From Hymenobacter taeanensis (lineage in GTDB: Bacteria > Bacteroidota > Bacteroidia > Cytophagales > Hymenobacteraceae), in contig NZ_CP053538.1 in the NCBI RefSeq assembly GCF_013137895.1, positions 4,743,001-4,807,000 of the forward strand: 64,000 nt of DNA, in the 5' to 3' direction. Positions 11,110 to 28,167 of this stretch are shown one piece after another. How positions within the stretch are numbered: position 1 is the first letter of the stretch; each line of letters begins with the position of its first letter. A program made the translations under genes and the position numbers. The notes under the pieces are model-generated. The model made no database searches, was not told where the DNA came from, and saw nothing but the letters and a program-made list of their open reading frames with translations.

Positions 11110-11125
11110 TCGGGAGTATAAAAGG

Positions 11126-11893: not shown

Positions 11894-11911
11894 ATGGCAA
11901 AAATATTTTTA

Positions 11912-11947: not shown

Positions 11948-12092
11948 ATTGCATCGTAAAGCTACTACATTACTGCCAAGCACCCTGTACAAGCCTCTAT
12001 TTTTTTGAGCAGGACTAGCCTTACTCACCAACTGTTCAGCTCCTCTTCCTTTTAGTACCTTATCCGCCGCTACTCATTTACATTTCACTTCA

Positions 12093-12488: not shown

Positions 12489-12643
12489 CGTTTTGGGTAT
12501 CAAAAGCTGAGCAGCATTGACTCATGTCCTACGTATCGCGCGCGCAGCGCACACGCAGTACGCGAGAAAGCTACCTCAAGCTCAAAGCCCCAACTACCTA
12601 GCCCTACGTCCCGAAGCCTTTCAGTCCATAAGCCCCCTAAGCC

Positions 12644-13348
12644 ATGAACATCTTCAACCGCATCTTCAAAGTTGGCCAAGCCGAAGCTCATTCCGCCATA
12701 AATCAGCTCGAAGACCCTATTAAAATGACGGAACAGGGCCTGCGAGACCTGCGCCAGGACCTTGACAAGAGCCTGCAGGGCCTGGCCGAAGTAAAGGCTA
12801 TGGCCATCCGGGCCCGTAATGATGCTTCGGCCTCCCGCGCCAAAGCCCTCGATTATGAAAGCAAAGCGGTGCTCCTGCTTCAGCGTGCTCATAAGGGTGA
12901 GCTGGCCGCAGCTGAGGCCGACCGTTTAGCCAGCGAGGCACTCGTGAAAAAAGCCGAGAATGAGGCGCAGGCTACCCGCTCGGCGGCAGAGCAGGAGAAA
13001 TTTGAAGGCTCAGCCAGTCAGCTTGAGCAAAATGTGCAGCAGCTAAAATCTACCATCAGCCAGTGGGAGAATGAGCTCAAAACTCTGAAGGCCCGCGTAA
13101 CGGTAAGCACCGCTACCAAAACCATTAACCAGCAATTAGCCCAGCTAGATTCCTCGGGCACAGTGGCTTTGCTGGAGCGCATGAAGGAAAAGGTGGCCGT
13201 GGAAGAAGCCCTGGCGGAATCTTACGGGCAGCTAGCCCACGAAAGCAAAACCATTGACCAGGAGATTGACAAGGCCCTAGGCCACTCGGGGCGCGGCCAG
13301 GCCACGCAGGAGCTGCAGGCCCTCAAGACCAAGCTGGGGCTAGAGTAG
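12644..13348 (+). CDS. pspA: PspA/IM30-family membrane-remodelling protein
   Basis: 234 aa, almost wholly helical coiled coil. The N-terminus MNIFNRIFKVGQAEAHSAINQLEDPIKMTEQ matches the amphipathic helix and first hairpin of PspA/Vipp1, followed by a long Ala/Lys/Glu-rich hairpin and a C-terminal helix ending LKTKLGLE. PspA proteins form ESCRT-III-like rods and rings that bind stressed inner membranes. No PspF or PspBC genes are present; instead its partners here are YqiJ-like, flotillin-like and AAA ATPase proteins, an association known from comparative genomics of the phage-shock system. Confidence 0.9.
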   Translation: MNIFNRIFKVGQAEAHSAINQLEDPIKMTEQGLRDLRQDLDKSLQGLAEVKAMAIRARNDASASRAKALDYESKAVLLLQRAHKGELAAAEADRLASEALVKKAENEAQATRSAAEQEKFEGSASQLEQNVQQLKSTISQWENELKTLKARVTVSTATKTINQQLAQLDSSGTVALLERMKEKVAVEEALAESYGQLAHESKTIDQEIDKALGHSGRGQATQELQALKTKLGLE

Positions 13349-13388
13349 TCTGCCGCCCGCAACTACCTACTTCCTCCTATTTCTACCC

Positions 13389-13599
13389 ATGGATATCCAG
13401 CCAAAACTCCTAAAAACCCTGGCTTTTGTGGTGCTGCTGTGTGGGGTGCTGCTCCAGCTTTTTCACCTGCTGCCCCCCCGGCATTGCCCGAGTGCTGGCA
13501 ATTATTGGCTTCGCCGGTATCATTAGAGCCTATAGAATACAATTCCGGCAGCTGCAAGCAGAAAATACCCAACTACGGCAGCAGCTGGAGCTTCGTTAG
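13389..13599 (+). pseudogene. small membrane protein broken by one extra C in a C7 run
   Basis: The ATG at 13389 opens a frame with a hydrophobic stretch (TLAFVVLLCGVLLQLFHLL). At 13473-13479 there are seven Cs; reading six instead restores a frame to 13599 that gives a second hydrophobic helix (ARVLAIIGFAGIIRAY) and a coiled C-terminus (QLQAENTQLRQQLELR). The restored protein is 69 aa with two membrane segments. As given, frame 1 stops after 42 codons. It sits between pspA and the YqiJ-like gene. The break may be real, phase-variable or a homopolymer sequencing error. Confidence 0.6.
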
Positions 13600-13697
13600 T
13601 GGGCCTGAAAAGGGGGTAATTGCATCGCATTATTTTCTGTTTTTATTACCCCACTTGGTGGTGGGCTCCGCTCCTCCCCGATTAGTTTTCCCTTGCC

Positions 13698-14351
13698 ATG
13701 ACTGAACTTCTACACGCTGCGGTTTCAGCGCCCAACCTTGCCCCCACGGCCCTGTTGGTGTTCGTTCTACTGTACTGGCTCACGATTCTGGCAGGCATTC
13801 TTGACCTTAAAACCGTTGATCTGGACATTGACCACGACGTGGACCTCGGCCACCACGCCGAAGCGCATCCCCCCGAAATGGGTGTCAGCTGGCTGAACCA
13901 TGCCCTGACCTTCTTTAATCTGGGCCGCATTCCGCTGATGGTGTTTCTCAGTTTTGTAGCCCTCCCCCTTTGGGCCGGCAGTATACTTCTGAATTACTAC
14001 CTCCACAATGAGTCGGGGCTGCTGGGCCTGGCTTTACTGCTGCCGCTATTGCTAGGGAGCCTGCTGCTGGCCAAAGTCCTGACGCTGCCCTTCGTGCATC
14101 TGTACGCAGCTATGGAAAAAAACCACGACGGCGGCGTCCGGCCGCTGGGCAAGGTGTGCACTGTACTGCTACCCGCTACTGCCTATCGCCTAGGCCAGGC
14201 CCGGGTGCAAACGCAGGCAGGGGCTCCACTGATGCTGAACGTGCTGGCGGCTTCCCCAACTGCCGAGCTACGCAAGGGCGACACGGCCCTGGTAATTGAT
14301 TATGACGAACAGCGCCGCTGCTATTTGATTGAGCCTTACGAAGTCTTTTGA
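13698..14351 (+). CDS. YqiJ-like inner-membrane protein (DUF1449/OB-fold)
   Basis: 217 aa. About three membrane segments: residues ~15-33, ~75-95 and ~108-130. Between the first two is an acidic/His-rich loop (DLDIDHDVDLGHHAEAH). The cytoplasmic C-terminal ~70 residues (GKVCTVLLP...ARVQTQAGAPLMLNV...GDTALVIDYDEQRRCYLIEPYEVF) read as an OB/NfeD-like domain. In E. coli yqiJ stands directly before the flotillin yqiK, and the same partner follows here at 15156. It probably helps anchor or regulate the flotillin assembly. Confidence 0.78.
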   Translation: MTELLHAAVSAPNLAPTALLVFVLLYWLTILAGILDLKTVDLDIDHDVDLGHHAEAHPPEMGVSWLNHALTFFNLGRIPLMVFLSFVALPLWAGSILLNYYLHNESGLLGLALLLPLLLGSLLLAKVLTLPFVHLYAAMEKNHDGGVRPLGKVCTVLLPATAYRLGQARVQTQAGAPLMLNVLAASPTAELRKGDTALVIDYDEQRRCYLIEPYEVF

Positions 14352-14384
14352 GGCTCTCGCACCACCAGAGGTCCTACATTACTG

Positions 14385-14792
14385 ATGAGTATGAACCAGG
14401 TCTTTCCCTCTAAAATCAGCTGGTGGCTGTTTGCACCCGTGCTGAGTAGTCTGGGCTTCTTTTTACTCTTATCTTTCGTGCAGCAACGGTGGGGTGCCAG
14501 CGTTGTGGTGCTGGCAGTGGGTGCTTTTTTAGGGTACCTGCTGGCAAACACTCGCTATACACTCACACCGCAGGAGTTATTAATTACCTCAGGTCCTATT
14601 CATAAACGGGTGCCTATCACCAGCATTACCAGCGTTAAGCCAACGCGGAACCCCATCAGCTCCCCGGCCCTGTCGCTCAACCGACTGGAAATTCGCTATG
14701 GCAAGTATGACTCGGTATTGATTTCCCCGGCTAATCCCAAGGGCTTTCTTACCACCCTGCATCAACTCAACCCCGCCCTGCGCCATGATTGA
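14385..14792 (+). CDS. two-helix membrane protein with bacterial PH domain
   Basis: 135 aa. Two hydrophobic helices (residues ~12-32 and ~36-52) precede a beta-rich domain starting at TRYTLTPQELLITSGPIHKRVPITSITSVKPT, the layout of bPH-domain membrane proteins. Start at 14385 or the second Met at 14391. Lies 33 nt after the YqiJ-like gene and overlaps a 37-codon frame at its 3' end. Possibly a membrane-associated accessory of the PspA/flotillin cluster. Confidence 0.7.
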   Translation: MSMNQVFPSKISWWLFAPVLSSLGFFLLLSFVQQRWGASVVVLAVGAFLGYLLANTRYTLTPQELLITSGPIHKRVPITSITSVKPTRNPISSPALSLNRLEIRYGKYDSVLISPANPKGFLTTLHQLNPALRHD

Positions 14793-14898
14793 TCTGTTGC
14801 TGAACTTAAAAGCTTTTCTGCATTGGCTAGGCCAGTTTCTATTTGATGGAGCCCTGGCAGAATTTTTCGACCGCATTGCAGAGCTGCTCTTTCCCTGA
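14785..14898 (+). CDS. 37-aa amphipathic peptide
   Basis: ATG 14785 overlaps the last 8 nt of the PH-domain gene (a coupling arrangement) and TGA ends at 14898. The product is rich in Leu, Phe and Trp with regularly spaced Asp, Lys, Arg and Glu, and reads as one or two amphipathic helices (MIDLLLNLKAFLHWLGQ). It could be a membrane-surface peptide of the cluster. No homologue is recognised; support is the overlap, the composition and the lack of another gene before 15156. Confidence 0.4.
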   Translation: MIDLLLNLKAFLHWLGQFLFDGALAEFFDRIAELLFP

Positions 14899-15155
14899 AC
14901 CACTGTTCCAGGCCCCCTCGCCGAGCTACCTTCATGAAGCAAGATTGATCTTGTGCTAGGCTGCTCGGGCCAGTGTATACATCAGCAAACTACTATCTCT
15001 CTTCCTATTATACTACCATTCTATACGTACCCCTGCATTGCCCGTGGCGGCTAGCGCACAAGCGGCATATCGCCTTTGTCTTACTGTACTGGCCTAGAAG
15101 GCTGGTTTCTCACATTTCCCCTTCCCGATAGAATTAACTTCTACTTCCTACTTCC

Positions 15156-17330
15156 ATGTTAGAACAACTTTCCCTGGCGGTGATAATCATCGCTGCCATC
15201 CTTGTGTTGGGTTTTCTGGCCATTGTGGCCCGTATGTACCAGAAGGCTGTGCAAGGCGAGGCCCTGGTGCGCACCGGTATGGGCGACACCCAGGTATCCT
15301 TCAGCGGCATCTTTGTGGTGCCCGTGCTCCACAAGCTGGAGGTGATGGACATTAAGCTGAAAACCATTGTTATTTCTCGCGCTGGCTCTGAGGGCTTGGT
15401 TTGCAAAGACAACCTGCGGGCCGATGTGAAGGTGAATTTCTTTGTGCGGGTAAACAAAACCGAGCAAGACGTTATCAACGTGGCCCAGAGCATTGGCGCC
15501 CACCGGGCCTCTGACCCAGCCGCCCTGGAAAGCCTCTTCGACGCTAAGTTTTCCGAAGCCCTGAAGACCGTAGGCAAGCACTTTGACTTTATTGAGCTTT
15601 ATAACTCCCGCGAGCAGTTCAAGCAGGAAATCCTGCGCATCATCGGTACCGACCTCAACGGGTACGTCCTCGACGACTGCGCCATCGACTACCTGGAGCA
15701 AACCCCACTCACGGCCCTGAATCAGGACAACATCCTCGACGCTGAGGGCATCAAGAAGATCATTGCCCTCACCTCGGAGCAGAAGATTCAGGCAAACTCT
15801 ATTCAGCGGGAGCAGCAGAAAACCATCAAAAAGCAGGATGTGGAGGCTCAGGAAACCATTCTGCAGCTTGAAAAGCAACTGATTGAAAACCAGGAAAAGC
15901 AGAAGCGCGAAGTAGCCAACATCAGAGCCCGCGAAGTAGCGGAAGCGGCCAAAGTGCAGCAGGAAGAAACCCTGAAGTCGGAAAAAGCACGCATTGCCAC
16001 CGAGGAGGAAGTGCGTATTGCCGAGCAGAACCGCGACCGGCAGGTACTGGTAGCCGAGCGCAACAAAGAGCGAACCGATGCCGTGGAAACGGAGCGCGTA
16101 GCCCAGGCCAAAGCACTGGAAGCCAACGAGCGGGAGCGGATTGTAGCTCTGGCACAGATTGAAAAGGAAAAGGCGCTGGAGGAAGAGAAGAAAAATATCC
16201 AGACCATCATCCGCGAAAGAATTACGGTGGAAAAAGCCACGGTAGTCGAAGAGGAAAAGATCAAAGACACTCGCGCCCAGGCCCAGGCCGACCGCGAAAA
16301 GCTGGTAGCCGTAACTGCTGCCCAGCAGCAAAACGACACGGCCACGATTAACTTTGTGGGCACCGCCGAAATGGAAAAGCAAGGTGCCGAGTTCCGGGCC
16401 AAGCAAGCCCTCATCGACGCGGAGGCCGAGAAAGCTGCCGCTGAGTTTAAAGCTCAGGCCATCCGCACCCTGGCCGAAGCCGAAGCCAGCAAAGCCGCCG
16501 CCGTAGGCCTGGCCGAAGCCCAGGTGATGCAAGCCAAAGCCACTGCCCGCCAGAAAGAAGGTGAAACCCAGGCCAACGTGCTCCAGCTCACTGCCGCCGC
16601 TGAGGCTCAGGCCATCCAGGCCAAAGCCGGTGCCCAGGCCGAAGCCGACGAGAAGCTGGGCCTGGTAGCCGCCAAAGTCAACCGCGAAAAAGGCCTCGCC
16701 GACGCTGACATTATCCAAGCCAAAGCCGACGCCGACCAAAAGAAAGGCCTGTCCGAAGCCGCCGTATCGGAGCAGAAATTCGCGGTGGAAGCCAAGGGCA
16801 TCGAAGCCAAGGCCGACGCCATGAAAAAGCTCGACGGCGTGGGCAAAGACCACGAGGAGTTCAAGCTGCGCCTCGACAAGGAGAAGTCGGTAGAGCTGGC
16901 CCAGATCAGCATCCAGAAGGATATTGCCGCCTCCCAGGCCGACGTTATTGGCGAGGCCCTCAAAGCCGCCAAGATCGACATTGTGGGTGGCGAAACGATG
17001 TTCTTCGACCAGATCATCGGCTCCATCACGAAAGGCAAAATGGTAGACCGCGCCGTGCACAACTCTGAAGTGCTGGGCACCGTGAAAGACGCCTTCTTCT
17101 CCGTGGACGGCAACGGTGGGGGCGACTTCAAAACCAACCTGCGCCGCTTCGTAGATCAGTTCGGCCTGAGCTCCGAGGACATGAAGAACCTGAGCGTTTC
17201 AGCCCTCCTGCTGAAGATGATGAACCAGGCCGGCGACGACGCAACCCGTGCCACGATTACGCAACTGGCCGGTACCGCTACGGCGCTAGGCATCAGTGAC
17301 AAGCCGGCGAAGATGCTGGAGCTGAAGTAA
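15156..17330 (+). CDS. flotillin/YqiK-like SPFH-domain protein
   Basis: 724 aa. Residues ~5-27 form one membrane segment, followed by an SPFH/band-7 domain (EALVRTGMGDTQVSFSGIFVVP ... NFFVRVNKTEQDVINVAQ) to ~200. Residues ~210-560 are a long Glu/Ala/Lys coiled coil with degenerate AEA(x)KA repeats, and a flotillin-type C-terminus (GSITKGKMVDRAVHNSEVLG) follows. Flotillins form large membrane-bound cages and organise lipid domains. With PspA, YqiJ-like and AAA ATPase neighbours it belongs to a membrane-integrity module. A 633-codon reverse frame beneath it comes from codon bias. A palindromic repeat begins at the very next base after the stop codon. Confidence 0.92.
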   Translation: MLEQLSLAVIIIAAILVLGFLAIVARMYQKAVQGEALVRTGMGDTQVSFSGIFVVPVLHKLEVMDIKLKTIVISRAGSEGLVCKDNLRADVKVNFFVRVNKTEQDVINVAQSIGAHRASDPAALESLFDAKFSEALKTVGKHFDFIELYNSREQFKQEILRIIGTDLNGYVLDDCAIDYLEQTPLTALNQDNILDAEGIKKIIALTSEQKIQANSIQREQQKTIKKQDVEAQETILQLEKQLIENQEKQKREVANIRAREVAEAAKVQQEETLKSEKARIATEEEVRIAEQNRDRQVLVAERNKERTDAVETERVAQAKALEANERERIVALAQIEKEKALEEEKKNIQTIIRERITVEKATVVEEEKIKDTRAQAQADREKLVAVTAAQQQNDTATINFVGTAEMEKQGAEFRAKQALIDAEAEKAAAEFKAQAIRTLAEAEASKAAAVGLAEAQVMQAKATARQKEGETQANVLQLTAAAEAQAIQAKAGAQAEADEKLGLVAAKVNREKGLADADIIQAKADADQKKGLSEAAVSEQKFAVEAKGIEAKADAMKKLDGVGKDHEEFKLRLDKEKSVELAQISIQKDIAASQADVIGEALKAAKIDIVGGETMFFDQIIGSITKGKMVDRAVHNSEVLGTVKDAFFSVDGNGGGDFKTNLRRFVDQFGLSSEDMKNLSVSALLLKMMNQAGDDATRATITQLAGTATALGISDKPAKMLELK

Positions 17331-17524
17331 CCTCACCCCCGGCCCCCTCTCCTCGGGGAGAGGGGGAGCCACGGCGACGTAGGACCGTATTTTTATTTGG
17401 TATATACCTTATTCTACTTCACTTATGCCCTCAGAAGATATCAATGATAATCTCAGTTCAGACGGCATAGAATATAGTCGTCAGGCTCCCCCTCTCCCTG
17501 AGGAGAGGGGGCCGGGGGGTGAGG
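17331..17524. repeat. composite palindromic element (repeat-spacer-inverted repeat)
   Basis: 17331-17370 reads CCTCACCCCCGGCCCCCTCT and continues CCTCGGGGAGAGGGGGAGCC; 17484-17524 is the inverse (GGCTCCCCCTCTCC ... GGGGTGAGG). They bracket a 113-nt AT-richer spacer and together form a MITE-like unit with ~40-bp terminal inverted repeats. Each arm can also fold on itself (CCCCCTCTCC/GGAGAGGGGG). It abuts the flotillin stop codon and precedes the DUF559 gene by 13 nt. Confidence 0.75.
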
Positions 17525-17537
17525 TACCCCCTACCGC

Positions 17538-17924
17538 ATGTTTACCACCGATGCCATTCGCTGGACACAACACCTAAAAAACTACGCTCGCACCAACCGC
17601 AAAAAGCCTACTGAAGGTGAAGACCATCTTTGGCAAGAATTGCGCAACCAAAAGCTAGGGATACGCTTCCGTCGTCAGCATGCCATCCAAAAATTTATCG
17701 TCGATTTCGTCTGCCTGGAGGCTTGGTTGATTATTGAAGTCGATGGTAGCATTCATGATGAAGCAGGGCAAGTCGAGTATGACGACGGCCGCACGCACGA
17801 CTTGCAGGAGGCCGGCTTTCTAGTCCTGCGCTTTGCCAATGAAGATGTGCTGCACAACACGCCTCAAGTTCTGCAAACCATCAAGGAGCACCTGAAAACG
17901 CTTCTACCAACCTACTCAAGGTAA
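17538..17924 (+). CDS. DUF559 (Vsr-like) endonuclease-fold protein
   Basis: 128 aa. It shows the whole DUF559 signature: an N-terminal KNYARTNRKKPTEGEDHLWQELRN helix, then LGIRFRRQHAIQKFIVDFVCLEAWLIIEVDGSIHD with the catalytic Asp/Glu/Asp pattern of the restriction-endonuclease-like fold, and DDGRTHDLQEAGFLVLRFANEDV. The D...ExD residues look intact, so it may be active. It lies exactly between two copies of the C/G-rich palindromic repeat (17484-17524 and 17968-18009). DUF559 genes are often scattered in genomes next to short repeats; a role in moving or repairing at those repeats is inference. It is not obviously part of the envelope cluster it interrupts. Confidence 0.88.
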   Translation: MFTTDAIRWTQHLKNYARTNRKKPTEGEDHLWQELRNQKLGIRFRRQHAIQKFIVDFVCLEAWLIIEVDGSIHDEAGQVEYDDGRTHDLQEAGFLVLRFANEDVLHNTPQVLQTIKEHLKTLLPTYSR

Positions 17925-17967
17925 TTAGCCTAGCCCTTACCCCACATCAAACCATCCGCGCCGCCGT

Positions 17968-18009
17968 GGCTCCCCCTCTCCCCGAGGAGAGGGGGCCGGG
18001 GGGTGAGGT
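17968..18009 (-). repeat. single palindromic repeat arm between DUF559 and ATPase genes
   Basis: GGCTCCCCCTCTCCCCGAGG and onward to GGGTGAGG, same orientation as the arm at 17484. It ends 8 nt before the ATPase start codon at 18017, so the leader of that mRNA would fold into a strong hairpin. Confidence 0.75.
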
Positions 18010-18016
18010 CCCACCC

Positions 18017-21000
18017 ATGGAACAACTCGAAACCGGCACCTACGAAATCCTGCGCAACCGCCTGCTCAAGAGCAGCTCCGACTTGCGTCAGCGCCTCGAC
18101 GCACTGAATACCGAGCGCAAGCAGGTGTTTGGGGCGGTGGATACCCGCCTGCTAGGCACCGGCCGCGTTACTACCGAAAACAACTGTGTGCCCTGGGACA
18201 TGGTGCCGGCAGGCCAGCGGTTTATCTTCGGGTACAATGTGGTGCTGGGGCTGAAGGCCGAGCCGGATCTGGCCGATGTGTTTGGGGTGTACGAATATGC
18301 CGAGCACGACTTTCGGCCGCTGGGGCTGGAGCTGCTGCAGAATCCGCAGTTTCTGGAGGAATTCCGCAACCTGTACCGCTACTACAAGAACACCCAGTTC
18401 GTGAAGTTCGCGGTGATTGGGGCGCACCTGTTCATGGTGTTTCGGGTGGGCAAGAGCGCCTCGGATGTAAAGACGTTCAAATGGCTGATACAGGGCGACA
18501 CGCTCACCTACCTTGATAACCGCTCCGACCACGAGTACACCTTCCCGCCCCAGCACGAGTTTCAGTGGAAGCGCGCCACCCGCGACATGCAGCGCGGCGG
18601 CAAGCACCCCCACATCAGCATTGAGGACAAGGTGTTCGTGGAGACGATTGGCGGCGACCTGACCATCAAGGTGGAGGACAATACCAGCACCGGGCAGGGT
18701 ATTCTGAGCGAGCCGGTAGACGATAAGGACCAGACCCTGGACGACTCGGAAATCTACTTTGCGGTGGTGGGCAACCTGATTCTGCTCAAAATCCGGCCTT
18801 ATCAGGAGCAGCAGTACCGCTACTTCATCTTCAACTTCAAGCTTAAAACCGCCCAGCGCCTCGATGCGCTGGCCGATGCCTGCGTGCTGCTCCCCGACGG
18901 ACAGGGCCTGATTTTCCCGCACGGCTTCTACCTACAAACCGGCGACAACAAGCTCTTCGACAATGGCCTGCGGGAGATGCTGTTTGAGAAGCGCGTCGTG
19001 TCGCCGAACGGGGAGGATTTTCTGTACGTGTTCTACAACAAGGACCAGGGCACCTACCTGCTGCTGAGCTACAACCGCATTGCTCAGCGCGTAGATAACC
19101 CGATTGTGTGCCACGGCTACGCCCTGTTTGAAAATGGGGAGCTGTGCTACTTCCGGGCCGATGACGAACCCAAGAAGCACCACGCCGTGCAGATCTGGCA
19201 GACGCCCTACACGGCCCCGGATTTCGAGCTACCCGTCACCTCCGATTCCTACCTCTACAAGCTGGGCAACAAGGAGATTGTGCGGGCTATGAGCGAAGTG
19301 CAGGAAGTCCTGACGCTGACCAGCAAGGACGACTCTTACGCCGGCCTCTACCTGGATTTAATCCGCCAGACGACTAGCCTCACCGACGCCTACCACTGGC
19401 TGCGTGAGCCGGCGGCTCAGGCCCTGGCCGAGCCGCTGGGCGAAATTCGGCAGACGGCTACAGCGGCCGTGGAGGAGTTTGAGAAGGTGCAGAGCATCCG
19501 CAAAAACACCGCTCAGCAAACCCAAACCGTTTTCCAGAAGGCCGACGAGCTAATCGGCCGCATCCGCCGCTCGGCGCCCGATACTGTGACGGAGTTTGTG
19601 CAGCTATTGGGCGAGCTGCGCGGGGTGCGGGGCGAGGTAATTTCCCTGAAGGAGCTGCGCTACGTGGAGCTGCCGGCTGTGGAGCAGCATGCTACTGGCC
19701 TAGAGGAGCTGAGCAAGGAAGTAGCCACTCAAACGGTGAACTTCCTGCTGAAGCCCGATGCCCTCACGCCCTACGCCCAGCGCGTGCAGGCCATTGCCGA
19801 CGGCGTGGAGCAAGTGCAGAAAACCGTGGAGGCCGACCAGCGCGAGCAGGAAGCCACCGCCGTGGCCCGGGAGCTAGAGCTGCTGATTGAAGTAGTGAGC
19901 AACCTGCCCATCCCCGACCCCACCCAGACCACGGCCATCATCGACAACATCTCGACGGTGTACGCCCGCTTCAACCAGATTCGGGCGGCGCTGAAAAGGC
20001 GGCGGCAGGCCCTGGCCGGCACTGAGGCCCAAGCCGAGTTTACCGCCCAGCTCAAGCTGCTGGAACAGGCCCTCACCAACTACCTTGACCTAGCCGACAC
20101 CCCCGCCAAGTGCGACGAGTACCTAACTAAGCTCATGGTGCAGTTGGAGGAGCTGGAAGGCAAATTTCCCGACTTCGACCAGTTTATTGAGCAGCTCACT
20201 AGCCGCCGCGAGCAGGTAGTAGAAGCTTTTGAATCGAAGAAAACCGCGCTGGTAGCCGCCCGCAACCAGCGCGCTACGGCCCTGCTGCAAAGCGCCGAGC
20301 GGCTGCTGAAAGCAGTACAGAGCCGTCTCACCCGCCTGGAATCAGTAGCGGATATCAATGGGTACTTTGCTGCCGACGTGATGGTGGAAAAGGTGCGCCA
20401 GACTGCCCAGGAGCTGCTTAACCTCGGCGACTCAGTGAAGGCCGACGACGTGCAGAGCCGCCTGAAAACCCTGCGCGAAGACGCCGTGCGCCAGCTCCGC
20501 GACCGGGCCGACCTGTTTGCCGACGGCGGCCAGACGCTTAAGTTCGGTCCCCACGCCTTCACCGTAAATACCCAGCCCCTGGAGCTGACCGTGGTGCTGC
20601 GCGACGACGCCCTGCATTACCACCTCACCGGCACCAACTTCTTCCAGAAGATAACCGACCCTACCCTGCTGGCTGCTAGACCAGTCTGGGAGCAAAACGT
20701 GTTGTCGGAAAACCAGGATGTGTACCGGGCCGAGTTCCTGGCTTGGCGCATTCTGCAAGCAGCCCAGCACCCCGCGCCGGCCGATGCGGAAGCGGGCCGC
20801 CCCGCCGTGCTGTCGGTTACCGAGCTAGGCCACCTCAGCGCCGCCGAGCTACTGGCCTACGTGCAGCAGTTTATGGCCGCGCGCTACCAGGAAGGCTACC
20901 TCAAAGGCGTGCACGACCACGACGCCGCCCTGCTGCTCACGGCCCTGGTGCGCCTCACTCGCACGGCAGACTTACTTCGCTACCCCGCCGACACCCGCGC

Positions 21001-21754
21001 TGCTGCGGCCCTCTACTGGCTTCGCTTCGCTGACCCCGACCAGCGCGCCCACTGGGAGCGGCAGCTGCAGGGCATCGGGGTGCTGCTGCAGGTATTCCCC
21101 GATTCGCAGGAGTTCGATGAGTTGAAAACCGAGCTGCAAGCCGCCGTGGATACCTTTGCCCAGCAAACCGGCCTCTTCACCCTAGGCCAGGTAGCGGAAG
21201 CCGGCGACTACCTCTTCCACGAGCTGACGCACACCGGCACCTTCATCATTGCCGCCGAAGCCGCCGAGCTGTACCAGCAGTTCCAGAAGCAACTGCAGGA
21301 ACGCCAGGCCACGGAGCTGTTTCAGCAGTCCATCGACCAGCTTCGCGACCAGCCGGTAGCGCAGTTCAATTTGGTGCGGCAGTGGGTGCAGGCGGTGCAC
21401 CTCACCCCCCCGGCCCCCCTCTCCTCAGGGAGAGGGGGGAGCCAGCCGTCAGCAAATGGCAGTGGCCTAGCCCAAAGAGAAAATTACAATCTATCGAACA
21501 ACAATCGTCAGGCTCCCCCTCTCCCCGAGGAGAGGGGGCCGGGGGTGAGGTTGCCGTCCTCCTGCTCACCCAAACCTACGACCCGGCCCGCGTCGTCCAC
21601 ACTCCCACCCGCGAAACCCTCACTGGCTTTCAGGGCAGCCACGCACGCCTCACCGACGACCGCAGCTACCACCTCAACTTCCCTGATTTCCGCCGCCGGC
21701 TCTTGCACCACGACCGGGTGCTGGTGCCGCAGTTCGACCAGTTTCAGGAGCTGA
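18017..21754 (+). CDS. DUF3686-type DNA-repair ATPase, N-terminal part of split gene
   Basis: Start ATG 18017 (MEQLETGTYEILRNRL); an earlier in-frame ATG at 17966 lies in the repeat. Up to about residue 1128 (nt 21399) the frame encodes the large N-terminal region of the Bacteroidota 'DNA repair ATPase' family (about 1,600 aa): a beta-rich DUF3686 part with YNVVLGLKAEPDLADVFGVYEY, then ~600 residues of coiled coil. After 21400 the frame enters a palindromic element and reads ~118 residues of low-complexity Pro/Ser/Thr in the wrong frame. The AAA domain continues one frame over from 21551. Removing about 155 nt (21397-21551) gives an uninterrupted frame. As it stands the product lacks its ATPase domain unless ribosomes or polymerase slip at the C7 run (21405-21411). 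Confidence 0.85.
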   Translation: MEQLETGTYEILRNRLLKSSSDLRQRLDALNTERKQVFGAVDTRLLGTGRVTTENNCVPWDMVPAGQRFIFGYNVVLGLKAEPDLADVFGVYEYAEHDFRPLGLELLQNPQFLEEFRNLYRYYKNTQFVKFAVIGAHLFMVFRVGKSASDVKTFKWLIQGDTLTYLDNRSDHEYTFPPQHEFQWKRATRDMQRGGKHPHISIEDKVFVETIGGDLTIKVEDNTSTGQGILSEPVDDKDQTLDDSEIYFAVVGNLILLKIRPYQEQQYRYFIFNFKLKTAQRLDALADACVLLPDGQGLIFPHGFYLQTGDNKLFDNGLREMLFEKRVVSPNGEDFLYVFYNKDQGTYLLLSYNRIAQRVDNPIVCHGYALFENGELCYFRADDEPKKHHAVQIWQTPYTAPDFELPVTSDSYLYKLGNKEIVRAMSEVQEVLTLTSKDDSYAGLYLDLIRQTTSLTDAYHWLREPAAQALAEPLGEIRQTATAAVEEFEKVQSIRKNTAQQTQTVFQKADELIGRIRRSAPDTVTEFVQLLGELRGVRGEVISLKELRYVELPAVEQHATGLEELSKEVATQTVNFLLKPDALTPYAQRVQAIADGVEQVQKTVEADQREQEATAVARELELLIEVVSNLPIPDPTQTTAIIDNISTVYARFNQIRAALKRRRQALAGTEAQAEFTAQLKLLEQALTNYLDLADTPAKCDEYLTKLMVQLEELEGKFPDFDQFIEQLTSRREQVVEAFESKKTALVAARNQRATALLQSAERLLKAVQSRLTRLESVADINGYFAADVMVEKVRQTAQELLNLGDSVKADDVQSRLKTLREDAVRQLRDRADLFADGGQTLKFGPHAFTVNTQPLELTVVLRDDALHYHLTGTNFFQKITDPTLLAARPVWEQNVLSENQDVYRAEFLAWRILQAAQHPAPADAEAGRPAVLSVTELGHLSAAELLAYVQQFMAARYQEGYLKGVHDHDAALLLTALVRLTRTADLLRYPADTRAAAALYWLRFADPDQRAHWERQLQGIGVLLQVFPDSQEFDELKTELQAAVDTFAQQTGLFTLGQVAEAGDYLFHELTHTGTFIIAAEAAELYQQFQKQLQERQATELFQQSIDQLRDQPVAQFNLVRQWVQAVHLTPPAPLSSGRGGSQPSANGSGLAQRENYNLSNNNRQAPPLPEERGPGVRLPSSCSPKPTTRPASSTLPPAKPSLAFRAATHASPTTAATTSTSLISAAGSCTTTGCWCRSSTSFRS

Positions 21755-23013
21755 AGAAGCAGCTGCTGGTGCGGGCCGCCCAGGATATGCGCCTGGAGGA
21801 TTTCCGTCCGCGTGTGCTTACCTCGTTTGTGCGCAATCAGCTAATTGATAAGGTGTATCTGCCGCTGATTGGAGCTAACCTGGCCAAGCAGATCGGGACG
21901 GCGGGAGAGGGCAAGCGCACCGACCTCATGGGCCTGCTCCTGCTCATCTCGCCGCCCGGCTACGGCAAAACCACGCTCATGGAGTACGTGGCCAACCGGC
22001 TAGGCCTCATCTTCATGAAGATCAACGGGCCGGCCATTGGGCACGCCGTAACCAGCGTAGACCCCGCCCAGGCCCCCAACGCCGGGGCGCGGCAGGAGCT
22101 GGAGAAGCTGAACCTGGCCTTCGAGATGGGCGACAACGTGATGATTTACGTGGACGACATTCAGCACTGCAACCCCGAGTTTCTGCAGAAGTTCATCTCG
22201 CTCTGCGACGCCCAGCGCAAGATTGAGGGCGTATACGAGGGCCGCGCCCGCACCTACGACTTCCGCGGCCGCAAGGTGGCGGTGGTGATGGCCGGCAACC
22301 CCTACACCGAAAGCGGTGACGTGTTTCAGCTGCCCGACATGCTGGCCAACCGCGCCGACATCTACAACCTCGGCGACATCCTGAGCACCGGCTCCGAGGA
22401 AGCCTTCCGCCTCTCCTACCTCGAAAACGCCCTCATCAGCAACGCCGCCCTGGGCCGCCTCGCCACCCAAAGCCCCCAGGACGTGCCCGCCCTCATCCGC
22501 CTCGCCGAAACCGGACAGCAAGACGGCTTGAGCTTCGAGGGCAACCACTCGCCCGAGGAGCTAAACGAGTACGTGGCAGTGCTGCAAAAGCTGCTGCGCC
22601 TGCGCGACGTGGTGGCCCGGGTGAATGCGGCCTACATTGCCAGCGCCGCCCAGGCCGACGCCTACCGCACCGAGCCGCCGTTCAAGCTGCAGGGCTCCTA
22701 CCGCAACATGAACAAGCTGGCCGAGAAAGTGCGCCCCGTCATGAACGACCAGGAAATAACCGACTTGCTGGCCGCCCACTACGAAAGCGAAGCCCAAACC
22801 CTAACCAGCGCCACCGAGGCCAACCTGCTCAAGCTGCGCGAGCTGCTGGGCTGGCTCACCCCCGCCGAGGAAACCCGCTGGCAGGAAATCAAAGCCACCT
22901 TCCGCGACAACCTCCGCAACTCCGGCGCCGGCCAACTCCTGCAGATGCTGGACAAGCTGGAGAACATTGCCGGCGGCCTGAGTGGGATTCGGGAGGCGTT
23001 GAAGCGGGAATAG
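21382..23013 (+). CDS. DUF3686-type DNA-repair ATPase, C-terminal AAA part
   Basis: The frame is open from a GTG at 21382, but authentic family sequence starts only at ~21555 (VLLLTQTYDPARVVHTPTRE). It holds the AAA domain: Walker A SPPGYGKTTLMEY (near nt 21950-21985), Walker B VMIYVDDIQH (near 22140), a sensor-like VAVVMAGNPYTESGD and an arginine-containing MLANRADIYNLGD. The C-terminus (LLGWLTPAEETRWQEI ... LLQMLDKLENIAGG) is duplicated twice downstream. It is the second half of the gene beginning at 18017. Whether it is translated alone is unknown; the first plausible starts lie in the inserted repeat. Confidence 0.85.
   Translation: MGAGGAPHPPGPPLLRERGEPAVSKWQWPSPKRKLQSIEQQSSGSPSPRGEGAGGEVAVLLLTQTYDPARVVHTPTRETLTGFQGSHARLTDDRSYHLNFPDFRRRLLHHDRVLVPQFDQFQELKKQLLVRAAQDMRLEDFRPRVLTSFVRNQLIDKVYLPLIGANLAKQIGTAGEGKRTDLMGLLLLISPPGYGKTTLMEYVANRLGLIFMKINGPAIGHAVTSVDPAQAPNAGARQELEKLNLAFEMGDNVMIYVDDIQHCNPEFLQKFISLCDAQRKIEGVYEGRARTYDFRGRKVAVVMAGNPYTESGDVFQLPDMLANRADIYNLGDILSTGSEEAFRLSYLENALISNAALGRLATQSPQDVPALIRLAETGQQDGLSFEGNHSPEELNEYVAVLQKLLRLRDVVARVNAAYIASAAQADAYRTEPPFKLQGSYRNMNKLAEKVRPVMNDQEITDLLAAHYESEAQTLTSATEANLLKLRELLGWLTPAEETRWQEIKATFRDNLRNSGAGQLLQMLDKLENIAGGLSGIREALKRE
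21400..21550. repeat. palindromic element inserted inside the ATPase gene
   Basis: Left arm 21400-21443 (CCTCACC ... GGAGCC) and right arm 21511-21550 (GGCTCC ... GGTGAGG) flank a 67-nt spacer, the same layout as 17331-17524. Both right arms are preceded by TCGTCA. C and G runs are longer here (C7, C6, G6 instead of 5). The element is free of stop codons in two forward frames, so both halves of the host gene read through it. The interruption changes frame. Confidence 0.85.
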
Positions 23014-23027: not shown

Positions 23028-23429
23028 ATGAAGAGTACTGATATCGTAGGTTTCATTCTTGTAGCGGTTCCTTGTGTGATTATTACACTGGTTTCCTTGT
23101 ACAGAGTGCGTCAAAAGTTTCGACTACAACGAACCGGCAAAATCGCGGCCGGCACAGTAATTTGGATTGAGCACGAAGCAGGCAAGTCTCCGGCTTTCTA
23201 TCCGGTAGTCCGCTTCCAGAATGCTCAGCAGAAATTGATAACAGTCCGCTCGAGCTTTGGCACCACGGCGGACCGCTACAAAGAAGGCGACGAAGTCACA
23301 GTGCGTTTTGATCCGGCCGACTCAAACAGCGTGAGTATTGATGGAGAGAGACTAAGCTTCGGCGACTGGATGACTGTTGCCTTCAGTATTAGCGGTTTGG
23401 TATACGCCGTATGGAAATATTTCCCTTAG
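23028..23429 (+). CDS. DUF3592 membrane protein
   Basis: 133 aa. N-terminal membrane segment (residues ~6-24), then a beta-rich DUF3592 domain (TGKIAAGTVIWIEHEAG ... FYPVVRFQNAQQKLITVRSSFG ... YKEGDEVTVRFDPADSNSVSI) and a second hydrophobic segment near the C-terminus. Proteins of this type are often accessory genes of unknown role, some next to toxins. It starts 14 nt after the ATPase stop and is followed 4 nt later by a duplicated fragment of the ATPase 3' end, so it looks like inserted cargo. Confidence 0.75.
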   Translation: MKSTDIVGFILVAVPCVIITLVSLYRVRQKFRLQRTGKIAAGTVIWIEHEAGKSPAFYPVVRFQNAQQKLITVRSSFGTTADRYKEGDEVTVRFDPADSNSVSIDGERLSFGDWMTVAFSISGLVYAVWKYFP

Positions 23430-23433
23430 ATAG

Positions 23434-23536
23434 CCTCCGCAACTCCGGCGCCGGCCAGCTCCTGCAGATGCTGGATAAACTGGAAAACATTGCCGGTGGC
23501 CTGAGCGAGATTCGGGAAGTACTAAAGCGGGGGTAG
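23434..23536 (+). pseudogene. second copy of the ATPase 3' end (fragment B)
   Basis: 103 bp matching 22911-23013, the last ~34 codons of the ATPase (LRNSGAGQLLQMLDKLENI ...) with its own TAG stop. By eye it differs at about one base in eight, mostly in third codon positions, so the fragment derives from a diverged homologue, not from a recent copy of the neighbour. No start codon or upstream part. Confidence 0.8.
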
Positions 23537-23543
23537 CGAACCT

Positions 23544-23614
23544 ATGTTGCGGAGAATAAGCGCTATATTCACCGCATCTTATGCGGAGAATAAATACATA
23601 TATTCATCAGCTGG
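23544..23614 (+). repeat. imperfect tandem repeat over the Fic start codon
   Basis: ATGTTGCGGAGAATAAGCGC (from 23544) and ATGCGGAGAATAAATACATA (from 23581) are two ~37-nt copies. Each goes on to TATATTCA and contains a GAATA ... TATTC inverted repeat. The second copy carries the Fic start codon. They could be paired operator sites or a duplicated 5' end; the first ATG is out of frame with the gene. Confidence 0.5.
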
Positions 23615-24690
23615 CCGACTGGCCGCAGTTCACCTGGCAAGCTACCGCGTTAGAATCCCTGTTAGGGACCGTGCGTAACCAACAGGGCCGCCTACTAGGG
23701 CGGCTCGATGGCTTGGGCTTAGACTTAAGGGCCGAGGCCACGCTTCAGACGTTGACCCTGGACGTGCTCAAGTCCAGTGAGATTGAGGGGGAAATACTGC
23801 CCCCGGCGTCGGTGCGTTCGTCGCTGGCGCACCGGCTGGGCTTGGAACAGGGCGGCCTCCCTCCAGCAGACTGCCGCGTAGAAGGGGTTGTGGCGATGAT
23901 GCTGGACGCTACCCAGCAGGCCGAGCAGCCGCTCACCGCGGAGCGGCTGTTTGCCTGGCACCACGCGCTATTTCCTACCGGTCATAGCGGCTTGTATGCG
24001 GTGCAGGTCGGGGCGTGGCGCACCGGCCCTATGCAGGTGGTTTCGGGTCCGTTGGGGCGGGAGCGGGTCCACTACGAGGCCCCCCCCGCCGACATGATGG
24101 TGGCGCACATGCAGCAGTTCCTGGAGTGGTTCAATGCGCCCCTCGACCTGGATCCGGTGCTGAAAGCCGCCGTGGCGCATTTTTGGTTTGTGACAATCCA
24201 TCCGTTTGATGACGGCAACGGGCGCATTGCCCGCGCCATTGCCGACCTGCAACTCACCCGCGCCGATGGCACCGGACAGCGGTGCTACAGCATGTCAGCG
24301 CAGATTCAGGCCGAGCGTCAGGACTACTACCACTTACTGGAAACCAGCCAACGCGGCACGCTGGACCTTACGCCCTGGCTCACGTGGTTTCTGAGCTGCC
24401 TGGGCCGGGCCCTCACCAGCGCCGAACATACCCTGGGGCAGGTGCTGACAAAAGCCCGGTTCTGGGAGCGGCACCAGCAGACGCCTCTCTCGGAGCGGCA
24501 GCGGCACTTGCTGACCCGCTTGCTGGATGGCTTCGAGGGCAAACTGACCACGTCTAAATGGGCGCGCATAGCCAAATGCTCGCAGGATACCGCCGGCCGC
24601 GACATCACGGACTTAATCAGCAAAGGCATCATCGTAAGGGAAAGTGCCGGCGGCCGGAGCACCAGCTACCGTCTGGCCCCCGAGGCGTAA
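23581..24690 (+). CDS. Fic-family AMP transferase with DUF4172 and C-terminal HTH
   Basis: 369 aa. Residues 1-85 match the DUF4172 N-terminal domain (INTYIHQLADWPQFTW) and include the inhibitory helix motif SSEIEG (SxxxEG) of self-inhibited class II Fic proteins. The Fic core holds the complete catalytic motif HPFDDGNGRIAR (about residue 203). The C-terminal ~80 residues (LTTSKWARIAKCSQDTAGRDITDLISKGII) read as a winged HTH. Fic proteins transfer AMP to target hydroxyls; chromosomal class II forms often act as regulated modifiers or toxin-like factors. It is bracketed by two extra copies of the ATPase 3' end, marking it as cargo. Confidence 0.92.
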   Translation: MRRINTYIHQLADWPQFTWQATALESLLGTVRNQQGRLLGRLDGLGLDLRAEATLQTLTLDVLKSSEIEGEILPPASVRSSLAHRLGLEQGGLPPADCRVEGVVAMMLDATQQAEQPLTAERLFAWHHALFPTGHSGLYAVQVGAWRTGPMQVVSGPLGRERVHYEAPPADMMVAHMQQFLEWFNAPLDLDPVLKAAVAHFWFVTIHPFDDGNGRIARAIADLQLTRADGTGQRCYSMSAQIQAERQDYYHLLETSQRGTLDLTPWLTWFLSCLGRALTSAEHTLGQVLTKARFWERHQQTPLSERQRHLLTRLLDGFEGKLTTSKWARIAKCSQDTAGRDITDLISKGIIVRESAGGRSTSYRLAPEA

Positions 24691-24705: not shown

Positions 24706-24933
24706 GTGTCTACCTTTCTGTCCTACCTTCACCACGAAAGCGAAGCCAACCTGCTCAAGCTGCTGGGCTGGCTCACCCCCGCAGAAGAAACCCGCTGGCA
24801 GGAAATCAAAGCCACCTTCCGCGAAAACCTCCGCAACTCCGGTGCCGGCCAGCTCCTGCAGATGCTCGACAAGCTCGAAAGCATTGCTGGTGGACTAAGT
24901 GGGATTAGAGAGGCGTTAAACTGTGATAGTTAG
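24706..24933 (+). pseudogene. third copy of the ATPase 3' end (fragment C)
   Basis: From about 24733 the sequence matches the last ~65 codons of the ATPase (HESEANLLKLLGWLTPAEE ... LLQMLDKLESIAGG), with a shorter linker than the copy at 22.8 kb and an altered last few codons (ALNCDS). A GTG at 24706 would open a 75-aa frame, so a short protein is possible, but no domain function remains. A small ACACTT-GAAA-AAGTGT hairpin lies just before it. The AT-rich operon begins 14 bp after its stop. Confidence 0.75.
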
Positions 24934-24947: not shown

Positions 24948-26279
24948 CTAACCACCTGCTTTTTTAAGCAGTTGAGAAGACAAATAACTCACGCGTTTTC
25001 TATTGCCTTTTACACTATCGTCTAACAATTCTCGCACTGTCTTTTCCTCTATATTAGAGGATATATCACTTATCTTATCGCTACCTTGAATGAATTCAAA
25101 CCATCTATTGGAAATAGAAGTACTATCAGAATTTAACTTGTACAAAATCCTTTCATCATAAGGAAAGCTTTCATTGAAGTAATATTCCCATTGTTCAGAA
25201 GTAATATTGCTTAACACTTCATTCGCAGATTCTTGTGCTGCCCAACTTGTTCCAAAGTTATTACCAATTTTAACTGAAAGTGCAGCAGTAATACAAACTG
25301 GTAAAGCCGGAGTTGGTATACTGCTCCCCATTTTGGCCAGATTACGCATTGGTATAGGTTCATTGTAGAAGTTATTCATACCCTCATGAGCCTGAAGCAC
25401 TTCACTAGCTGCCTTAATAAAAGCTGTAGAGCGTAGATTTTCTGGAACAAAATCAAACCCCTTTGTAGCCAGAAGTACTTGACGAATGCTGCTAGCTGCT
25501 TTAGTGCTCCCATCAGCTATTAGTTCCGCATAACTTCTACCAATTTGATACTTCTCAGGTTTTTTCAGCTTACCCCATAATTGCGGTAATATAATTACAG
25601 TGTTAGATAACACATTATCTAACTGAGCGCCTAATGATGATTTAATTAAACCTAAAAGAATTCTTACAATAGCTCTTATAAAAAAATATGGACTAATCGA
25701 TATATTTTCTATTCGTTCATCATTTTTTTGAAGAACTTTTTCTTCAAGATTATCTCTAAATTCCTTAAAATCGAGAGCAAATTCTATTTTTTCGTGGCCA
25801 AGAATATTTTCAATACAATTTCTTATTACTGCAATTGCTTCTTCCGGACGCATTTCATTTTCATCCGCTTCTTCTGCATCCATGCTACCAAAGTGAAACA
25901 CTAGGTCCATAGATTGCCTTAGACGAAAAGCACTTGTGCCGTTAATTGCACCTAAATCCTCAGCGAGTTTAATAGCATCAAAATCTGTTATGACTTGCTG
26001 AAGATTCACCCCTTCCTTTATATCAGGACGATCTAGCATCTCAGCTATAAAACCAGTCCCAATACGACCTAGTTGAGCCTTTAGAGCAGATAATGCACGA
26101 GTCCATATGAAGCTACTGACCATCTCATAATTATGTGCTAAAAAGCCATTAACTATCTGTTTTTGGTCTTTAGCACTTAATTGCGAGCCGGCGGATACTA
26201 TTGCATTCATAGAATCGCTGCCAATGGAAAGAGGAGAAACCTGATTTTTCCAGCCGTGTATCTGTACCTCGTTACTCAT
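24948..26279 (-). CDS. unrecognised protein, partner of the DAC-like gene
   Basis: 443 aa from ATG 26279. An upstream in-frame ATG at 26327 exists, but 26279 forms the tight overlap ATGAGTAA with the preceding stop. No family is recognised. It is mostly helical, with an acidic patch near residue 135 (DAEEADENEMRPEEA), a central segment of hydrophobic helices (FFIRAIVRILLGLIKSSLG, NVLSNTVIILPQLWG) that could meet a membrane, and a second hydrophobic patch (TPALPVCITAALSV). Codon use and base composition are far AT-richer than the surroundings. Because of its coupling to the DAC-like gene it may be the effector or partner of that sensor; this is inference. Confidence 0.7.
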   Translation of the reverse strand: MSNEVQIHGWKNQVSPLSIGSDSMNAIVSAGSQLSAKDQKQIVNGFLAHNYEMVSSFIWTRALSALKAQLGRIGTGFIAEMLDRPDIKEGVNLQQVITDFDAIKLAEDLGAINGTSAFRLRQSMDLVFHFGSMDAEEADENEMRPEEAIAVIRNCIENILGHEKIEFALDFKEFRDNLEEKVLQKNDERIENISISPYFFIRAIVRILLGLIKSSLGAQLDNVLSNTVIILPQLWGKLKKPEKYQIGRSYAELIADGSTKAASSIRQVLLATKGFDFVPENLRSTAFIKAASEVLQAHEGMNNFYNEPIPMRNLAKMGSSIPTPALPVCITAALSVKIGNNFGTSWAAQESANEVLSNITSEQWEYYFNESFPYDERILYKLNSDSTSISNRWFEFIQGSDKISDISSNIEEKTVRELLDDSVKGNRKRVSYLSSQLLKKAGG

Positions 26280-27321
26280 TTTCAAAGAATTTAATTGCTC
26301 CATCTTGTGATTGCATAAAGACTGCACTCACTTTTGACTTCGGGAGTTTGCACAAATATTCAAAAGCTCTAGTCCTCGCTCCTCCCGAAGCCTTTTGAAC
26401 AGTTTTTTTCTGACTTGATTTATCTTTTATAAAGACATTATAAGCTAGCACAGAACCTGTAGTACTAAAAATTGTAATACCATCACTTAACATCATACCA
26501 ACAATTAATTGTATATAACTATCCAACTCACTATTATTTTTCAATAAAGGTTGACCATTCTGATCTATTTCTAATCTAAATTTTTTTAGTTTATCTATCA
26601 AATTTATAGGCTTAGGCAGTATTTGTCCGTCTTTAAATTCGTTTGTTTTAGTAATATTTTTACCACTGTATATTGCCGATATAGTTCCATGCTTTTTCTG
26701 CGTAACCGTATTTAACAATTTAAACAACAAACTACTGTATTGCTCTTGATATTTAAGATCTGATTTAAAGACTAATGCTTTAACAAAACTTTCTATTTTC
26801 TGACTTGGGGACTCTATATTATCTTCTATACCAAAACTCACCAAGAGCTGAGTATTATTCCAACTTTTTAATTCAATAAGCCCTTCGCTTACCTGTTGCA
26901 AAAAGAAAGCAGGTTGTTCCTTTTGACCATTTTTAATCAGGAGTTCCCAGGGCGATACTGATATTATAGATTCTCCACTTCGAAACAAGCCATACTCAAC
27001 AGTTGATTCATCTCTTTTAAAGTAAATATTCCAACTGCCTAATGCCAAAGGAGCTATCTTTTTCAGTCCCTCGGTAAAAGTGCTTGCTTCTCGCGGACCA
27101 CATCCGATATAAAATTTATCGAAATAGACAAGAGAATTTAATATCTCTTCATTGTCGAAAACATATATTTTAGGAAATAAAACCTGCCCTTCCTCTGTAT
27201 ATCTTGAAAGAGAATGTATAAGCTTTACAACCCCTTTTTGAGTAGCAAGGCATTCCATATTAGACTTCTGCAAGAAATCTACAACACTTCCTGCGAGGGA
27301 ACTTTGTAATGATAAAAACAT
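26272..27321 (-). CDS. protein with C-terminal DAC-like (DisA_N-type) domain
   Basis: 349 aa. The first ~200 residues are not recognised (mixed alpha/beta, e.g. IYVFDNEEILNSLVYFDKFYIG). Residues ~205-345 follow the order of diadenylate-cyclase domains: KHGTISAIYSGK (strand), a variable loop, LIVGMMLSDGITIFSTTGSVLAYNV (matches DGA), GGARTRAFEYL (matches the RHR-containing G-T-R-H-R-A segment, His replaced by Thr) and AVFMQSQDGAIKF (matches SEExGxI). The Asp and both Arg are kept, but DGA is DGI and RHR is RTR, so it may bind nucleotide more than make it. DAC-derived sensor domains have been proposed in prokaryotic conflict systems. First gene of an AT-rich operon; the next gene overlaps by 8 nt. 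Confidence 0.65.
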   Translation of the reverse strand: MFLSLQSSLAGSVVDFLQKSNMECLATQKGVVKLIHSLSRYTEEGQVLFPKIYVFDNEEILNSLVYFDKFYIGCGPREASTFTEGLKKIAPLALGSWNIYFKRDESTVEYGLFRSGESIISVSPWELLIKNGQKEQPAFFLQQVSEGLIELKSWNNTQLLVSFGIEDNIESPSQKIESFVKALVFKSDLKYQEQYSSLLFKLLNTVTQKKHGTISAIYSGKNITKTNEFKDGQILPKPINLIDKLKKFRLEIDQNGQPLLKNNSELDSYIQLIVGMMLSDGITIFSTTGSVLAYNVFIKDKSSQKKTVQKASGGARTRAFEYLCKLPKSKVSAVFMQSQDGAIKFFENE

Positions 27322-27630: not shown

Positions 27631-28167
27631 ATGGGCAAGCAATACCCTACCATCAGCGCCGACACTCAAGCCTTTATCGAGCAGCAGCACATATTCTTCG
27701 TGGGTACGGCCGCTGCGGATGGGCGCGTCAAAATCTCGCCCAAGGGCCAGGATACCCTGCGCGTGCTAGATGCCAACCGCGTGGCCTGGCTCAACCTGAC
27801 CGGCAGCGGCAACGAAACCGCCGCCCACCTGCTGGAGGTAAACCGCATACCCCTGATGTGGTGCGCCTTCGAGGGCAAGCCCAACATCCTGCGCCTCTAT
27901 GGCACCGCTACGGTGTACCACCCCCGCGACGCGGAGTGGGCTGAGCTGCTGCCGCTGTTCCCGCCCCTGCCCGGCTCCCGGCAGATAGTGGTGGTAACGG
28001 TAGATTTGGTGCAAACCTCCTGTGGCATGGCTGTGCCCTCCTTCGACTACCGGGCCGAGCGCGACGAGCTGAACCACTCCATGGAACCGCGCGGCCCCAA
28101 ACAGGTAGCGCAGTACTGGCACAACTGCCACGTCCGCAGCCTTGACGGCAAGCTCACCAGTATCTAA
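27631..28167 (+). CDS. pyridoxamine 5'-phosphate oxidase-family protein
   Basis: 178 aa. The split-barrel FMN-binding pattern is clear: FFVGTAAADGRVKISPKG, RVAWLNLTGSGNETAAHLLE and PLMWCAFEGKPNILRLYGTATVYH. The C-terminal part (VQTSCGMAVPSFDYRAERD) is typical of the group that acts as flavin or F420-type reductases of unknown substrate. It is not PdxH. Followed closely by the DUF4241 gene. Confidence 0.88.
   Translation: MGKQYPTISADTQAFIEQQHIFFVGTAAADGRVKISPKGQDTLRVLDANRVAWLNLTGSGNETAAHLLEVNRIPLMWCAFEGKPNILRLYGTATVYHPRDAEWAELLPLFPPLPGSRQIVVVTVDLVQTSCGMAVPSFDYRAERDELNHSMEPRGPKQVAQYWHNCHVRSLDGKLTSI

Follow-up and report, generated by a model that had tools for sequence, protein, structure and literature searches.

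A mobile gene pair of a DAC-fold protein and a helical partner in Hymenobacter taeanensis as a candidate conflict module

The window analysed here is a stretch of 64,000 nucleotides from Hymenobacter taeanensis (NCBI RefSeq assembly GCF_013137895.1, contig NZ_CP053538.1, positions 4,743,001 to 4,807,000 of the forward strand), and the subject of this analysis is a pair of genes on its reverse strand, called A and B below (Table 1). The pair had been singled out in a sequence-only reading as two overlapping, AT-rich genes inside GC-rich DNA, and both features were seen again: the two genes have ATGAGTAA in common where A ends and B begins, and the GC fraction of the pair is 0.352 versus 0.549 for the whole window. 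With the gene starts as set in this analysis, A and B overlap by 4–11 nt in 10 of 15 pairs from different genomes, the values for the remaining five being 50, 23 and, three times, -1.

Table 1. Genes, domains and repeats at the A–B locus (positions in the window)
Feature	Position	Strand	Description
Gene A	26272-27321	-	349 aa; N-terminal mixed alpha/beta part, residues about 1-170, DACNH-like by profile
Gene A, C-terminal DAC-fold domain	26272-27321	-	residues about 174-349 (position given is that of the gene)
Gene B	24948-26279	-	443 aa, all-helical; AlphaFold2 model pLDDT 86.1
Gene B, parts			N-terminal bundle, which aligns with the part of stand-alone relatives that bears the motif; after it, HEAT/ARM-like solenoid, residues about 166-429
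Overlap of A end and B start	26272-26279	-	8 nt
AAA-ATPase gene	21382-23013	+	Pfam AAA; 3' end (22830-23003) anchors the hotspot on its left; conserved in 14/19 relatives' loci
AAA-ATPase gene end, second copy	23353-23526	+	decayed, 63% identical
AAA-ATPase gene end, third copy	24747-24920	+	89% identical; left border of the A–B insert
Fic protein gene	23581-24690	+	Pfam Fic, E 8.3e-19; separate insert in the same hotspot
Right anchor gene of the hotspot	27631-28167	+	in 20/61 genomes of the genus, the window's included

The pair sits in a genus-wide insertion hotspot bounded on the right by a gene that presumably encodes a PPOX protein. The duplicated gene end and the Fic gene that had been noticed beside the pair are both real; the 174-nt 3' end of the AAA-ATPase gene is in fact present in three copies, which separate three inserts encoding a 133-aa protein, the Fic protein and A–B. 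When the locus was compared in 19 relatives carrying the right-border gene, the ATPase gene end and the border gene were found 435 to 8545 bp apart in 14, and the ATPase was absent from the examined stretch in the other five (L082, L088, L095-L097). Extra copies of the gene end occur in five of the 14 (L086, L092 and L093, with two each in L091 and L094), as if each insert had brought or duplicated a gene end, and L094 also carries a Fic gene of similar kind. PADLOC was applied to 10 hotspot proteins picked by eye, and clear defence-type genes, known and candidate, were found in the hotspot intervals of 5/14 relatives: PDC-M38A and B in L079 (E 1.5e-101 and 2.2e-66), a CBASS cyclase with a 4TM effector in L081 (2.2e-73 and 1.6e-51), a type IIG restriction enzyme in L083 (7.1e-183), a ThsA-like SIR2 protein in L091 (2.2e-23) and PDC-S31 in L094 (5.6e-50). 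The conflict setting suggested by the sequence-only reading is upheld by these copies of the hotspot. L080 gave weak restriction-type matches only, the best at 2e-13, two genes in L084 had no match to PADLOC, and A–B was not seen in the gene lists of the 14 relatives' hotspots.

Two further features of the region recur elsewhere. Small proteins of about 120–140 aa with one or two hydrophobic stretches are encoded in the window (23028-23429) and in L085-L087, L089-L091, L093 and L094. A conserved set of genes, which we take to encode HTH, PspA-like, NfeD-like, flotillin-like, DUF3686 and AAA-ATPase proteins (some of these names being presumptive), occupies window positions 11126-23013 and is found again in L070; L011 (1-5842) has a similar set, at the other end of which its A–B is located.

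Protein A was proposed from its motifs to end in a domain of the diadenylate cyclase type, and structure prediction combined with fold searching did find a DAC fold in it. The motifs themselves are present (SDG at residues 279-281, GARTRA at 314-319 and SQDGAI at 338-343), and so are the deviations that had been pointed out, with DGI in place of DGA in 15/15 A proteins, and RTR in place of RHR belonging to an R-x-R/K motif in which x is T, S, R or K and never His (15 rows). As described in PMC7288161, CdaA of Listeria monocytogenes binds the ribose through Asp71 and the phosphates through Thr102, Arg103, His104 and Ser122, and holds the metal through Glu124. Asp71, Arg103 and Ser122 correspond to D280, R316 and S338 of A, which together with D340 and H211-G212 are invariant (16/16 rows, and again 15/15 rows). 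The Glu124 position is always Asp in A, namely D340 (16/16 and 15/15 rows), the Thr102 position is Ala in 14/15 and Thr in 1/15, and in the 15 rows His104 is replaced by T, S, R or K. In DacA of Mycobacterium tuberculosis, the change of RHR to AAA abolished both ATP binding and activity, according to PMC3328451; A, unlike that mutant, keeps both basic residues of the motif. Judging from these pocket residues, A likely binds a nucleotide, whereas catalysis is doubtful because the His of RHR is lost.

The relation of A to described families was visible at the level of profiles. Neither Pfam DAC (PF02457) nor Pfam DACNH (PF21750) matched A up to E 1, and a sequence search of solved structures gave no match. 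Comparison with DACNH-DAC proteins by hhalign reached a probability of 78, an E value of 1.7e-5 and a score of 44.8, the best of 100 column shuffles being 20.9, and the alignment spanned profile columns 86-347 (140-348 without realignment). By this profile comparison, A is related to the DACNH-DAC proteins over the DAC domain and the part before it.

Protein B had been described as having hydrophobic helices. Its helical nature was confirmed, but membrane-type spans were not: the highest 19-residue hydropathy is 1.66, with no membrane-span signal, and in fold searches the model resembles repeats of the HEAT/ARM type, so that in the model the hydrophobic helices more likely form the core of a solenoid. 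B as a membrane effector was ruled out by hydropathy and the structure model. With the whole of B as query the matches were filled by solenoids aligning with residues 166-429. B matches phrog_27609 (E 7.8e-18); a sequence search of solved structures gave one match at E 0.8, none was found among viral predicted structures at E ≤ 0.001, and phage records held no match for B, for the stand-alone relative L033 or for the prophage A of L019.

Distant relatives of B are found as stand-alone genes on chromosomes, on plasmids and on prophage-like contigs. These stand-alone proteins (phrog_27609 and unnamed hypothetical proteins) resemble B over most of its length and have the conserved NNFYNE region in common with it; paired B differs from them in that they carry the motif R-N-x4/5-H, which we take to be the HEPN RNase pattern, and have no A neighbour in the stretches examined. 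Weak Pfam matches of three B relatives to HEPN_RiboL-PSP and Abi_C (E 0.045 to 0.23) are in line with this, but the stretch matched in L007 misses its motif. The protein of L022 joins a caspase-like domain (Pfam Peptidase_C14, E 1.4e-13) to a B (profile E 3.8e-124). Close relatives of stand-alone B are found in 50/5426 Escherichia coli genomes. One of them, annotated "hypothetical protein", lies near drt3a/drt3b in a satellite-like region (L062, 10001-11431), and another with the same annotation lies on an IncFII-type plasmid (L063, 8001-9431).

Seventeen distinct A genes were found (the window, L002-L006, L011-L017, L019-L021 and L116), and B adjoins 16 of them, as would be expected from the proposal that the two genes work as a pair. 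The exception is L004, where no B match lies within the surrounding 19.5 kb (L045). Behind the lone A of that stretch lies AT-rich DNA of about 0.9 kb (GC 0.345) with no B match, possibly a decayed pair (L045, 8343-10289). Within the family of the window's organism, A is present in 4/204 genomes, the window's included, three of which also have B, and A is in 1/397 genomes of another family, this being a centre genome already known. Both of the A genes among 72,556 plasmid records are accompanied by B. On viral contigs, a first scan with A alone confirmed none; scanning with the A alignment gave three loci, all with B and on the same contigs as had been reached through B. Some pairs are located on plasmids and prophage-like contigs, and Flavobacterium, Mariniflexile, Chryseobacterium, Vibrio, Agrobacterium and Deltaproteobacteria MAGs are among the hosts with a name. 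The sequence distances among A proteins correlate with those among B proteins (r 0.93 over 15 pairs; 0/5000 permutations reach it, their maximum being 0.52), and this correlation of sequences is to be read as joint inheritance and not as contact, because the common ancestry of the hosts contributes to r. B is the more conserved of the two, with a mean identity of 0.40 versus 0.29 for A. A–B is a genuine and ancient mobile pair, and it is under selection.

The presence of the R-N-x4/5-H motif follows the partnership of B. In the first set, R-N-x5-H was found at one place in 16/16 stand-alone and 0/15 paired B proteins. The pattern was picked after this set, and loci from later searches serve as its test: searches with a wide B profile matched 8/395 and 5/320 genomes, two known centre genomes included, and among the new loci the motif was present in 8/8 without A in the stretch examined and absent from the one with A (L116). 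In the tree set, which incorporates nine loci from these later, independent searches, the motif stands at the family's position in 22/22 stand-alone B proteins, once as the R-N-x4-H variant, and in 0/16 A-paired ones, the number of independent lines being somewhat smaller because six pairs of sequences are more than 70% identical. The first 16 stand-alone proteins included the near copies L026 and L028, and the 22 are counted without them. The tally leaves out L027 (a fragment), L029, L030, L032, L034 and L035, the short fragment L111 was unused, and two loci were kept apart: L100, where the contig ends at B so that the A side is cut off and the motif is absent, and L022. A looser R-x4-H without the N occurs near the same place in 3/15 paired B proteins (L002, L005 and L015) and is absent from the rest, and the pattern is also met away from the family's position, at residue 292 of the paired L014 and at residue 465 of L031, L026 and L028. 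The stand-alone proteins fall into a single clade (support 1.000), and the motif rule may for this reason reflect a single change. The B part of L022 has no motif at that place and in the tree lies on the side of the paired proteins, the branch nesting it among paired B proteins having a support of 0.73 only. Paired B seems, from these alignments, to have lost the RNA-cutting motif kept by its stand-alone cousins, and its output may have been taken over by its partners.

The wider neighbourhoods were searched with PADLOC, using 91 proteins encoded around 12 of the pairs (those of L019-L021 and L116 were left out, as was the unpaired A of L004) and, as controls, 128 of the 129 proteins of 12 regions chosen by hand, one protein of 2346 aa being left out. 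CBASS phospholipase and cyclase, restriction, SIR2-pAgo and Dsr2 were among the matches listed for the pair neighbours (25 of 84 families), and Gabija, AbiE and type IIG among those listed for the controls (25 of 103 families). With hits unassigned to loci, the matches near the pairs and in the control regions did not separate, one control (L070) being the same hotspot in a relative. Because this comparison did not separate the two, a defence reading is based here on the hotspot, on the mobile settings and on the family of B, rather than on a general enrichment.

Individual neighbourhoods are described here in their own right. Patatin and nucleotidyltransferase genes lie divergent from A–B in L006, an Agrobacterium plasmid, and a patatin gene lies near A–B in L013. 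The Vibrio plasmid L005 has a BsuBI/PstI restriction system. After A and B it carries a third gene at 3225-3839, which has one base in common with the end of B and encodes a candidate membrane component (204 aa with hydrophobic stretches, peak 19-residue hydropathy 2.02). In L012 a SIR2-pAgo gene starts 28 nt after B, possibly making a unit of three genes (6941-12495), and in L022 (3970-9230) a SIR2-pAgo gene lies 38 nt before the caspase-B gene; the two SIR2-pAgo proteins are related, with 28% identity over 1059 columns. Downstream of most A–B pairs there is no evident effector on which a diffusible signal could act.

Neither A nor B matched a family of PADLOC 2.0.0 up to E 1, the pair had no match to its cyclase models, and no cyclase was seen among the window neighbours. 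CBASS has a CD-NTase gene in its operon, whereas A–B consists of two genes without one. Canonical DisA and CdaA have in common with A the fold, the Asp of DGA, the first Arg of RHR, the Ser and the acid of SEE, but A has no RHR His, has Ala or Thr at the Thr102 position and SQD or SHD in place of SEE, and has no Pfam DAC match. A near arrangement is that of the DACNG-DACNH-DAC proteins (PF21752, PF21750, PF02457), in which, as in A, the C-terminal DAC domain follows a related N-terminal part and HG, DG, GAR and S-x-D-G stand in a common order; A differs from them in its missing Pfam match and DACNG part, in having DGI for DGA and in its partner B. Two such proteins are encoded in addition to CdaA in the same genome (L041, 307-1863, and L042, 217-1839), all three having a DAC match over the Pfam cut-off. 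The DACN* names and the association of DAC domains with CBASS probably go back to Burroughs in 2015 and Galperin in 2023; a text search of papers, with most subscription journals outside its scope, did not find these names.

A functional parallel is the DS-2 antiphage system, which is described in PMC13092281 as a phospholipase, a cGAS-like cyclase and a DAC protein; mutating two predicted catalytic DAC residues removed defence, and 15/30 DAC homologues lay near a CBASS. The statement in the sequence-only reading that DAC-type sensors had been "proposed" in immunity is outdated in its wording, a system that requires its DAC protein being in print. DS-2 and A–B both place a DAC-type protein in a defence setting (compare the patatin and nucleotidyltransferase genes of L006), but no CD-NTase or phospholipase lies beside A–B in the window, and the portion of PMC13092281 describing DS-2 has no B-like partner. 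A DAC in phage defence is already known from DS-2 (PMC13092281), and what is new here is the wider family of B and its motif rule. Among the families and the literature searched, most subscription journals excepted, the A–B pair is probably undescribed.

With about even confidence, A–B is seen here as a candidate mobile two-gene conflict module, most likely anti-phage, in which both proteins form one unit. B would be the part for recognition and relay, itself no longer cutting RNA, and A the output, an assignment favoured because paired B is without the RNase-type motif and because of the caspase-like partner. B would register infection and switch A, the pocket of A would bind ATP or a related nucleotide and either make a (di)nucleotide or use up its substrate, and growth would stop before the phage spreads. 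In the comparison of sequences B seems to stay constant, and A seems to be one partner that can be exchanged for others, since the motif is missing when B is partnered and one B-caspase fusion exists. A more specific version can be offered tentatively, as a possibility on the unlikely side: B would be a shared infection-sensing solenoid whose outputs are a HEPN-type RNase of its own in stand-alone forms, a fused caspase-like protease (L022) or, as a separate protein, the DAC-fold A, and in the last case the RNase would be disarmed and A, as a non-canonical DAC, would make an undescribed nucleotide signal or spend ATP upon infection.

The sequence-only reading had distributed the roles differently. 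Its DAC fold in A and its conflict setting stand, and A and B are an old pair, but the comparative evidence leans away from A as sensor and B as effector. A reading in which protein A, its DAC domain being catalytically dead, senses a nucleotide and holds back or releases B as the effector would agree with the lost RHR His and with DGI and SQD replacing DGA and SEE, with the alignment of A to proteins called probable sensors by Pfam, with the higher conservation of B and with the RNase-like appearance of B relatives; we nevertheless regard it as rather unlikely, since paired B lacks the RNase-type motif, the Asp, Arg and Ser of the DAC pocket and an acid are all retained, and B is also found fused to another effector-like domain. 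That the two genes overlap and lie on mobile DNA, together with the RNase-type motif of B relatives, could point to a selfish addiction pair of the toxin–antitoxin type, one protein being toxic and the other neutralising, with any effect on phage secondary. Such a pair is improbable here: A and B are both large, the partner is a protein with an enzyme fold, and stand-alone B relatives have no antitoxin-like partner in the stretches examined. That A–B is a housekeeping signalling or stress operon and no conflict system at all is very unlikely given the rare and patchy occurrence of A, the AT-rich composition and the plasmid and prophage-like locations of the pair, and the presence of a CdaA of its own in the genome, even though A–B in L011 adjoins a gene set of the PspA/NfeD/flotillin/DUF3686 type like that upstream of the window's hotspot.

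The known roles of DAC-type cyclases lie mainly in the control of potassium and of the cell wall. If the conflict-module reading is true, a DAC arrangement without a CD-NTase and with a helical partner family would widen the set of nucleotide enzymes of immunity. The motif rule gives a way to test a general question, how a single recognition scaffold comes to switch its output as it evolves, and it flags the hypothetical protein carried by 50/5426 E. coli genomes as a candidate RNase-type defence gene.
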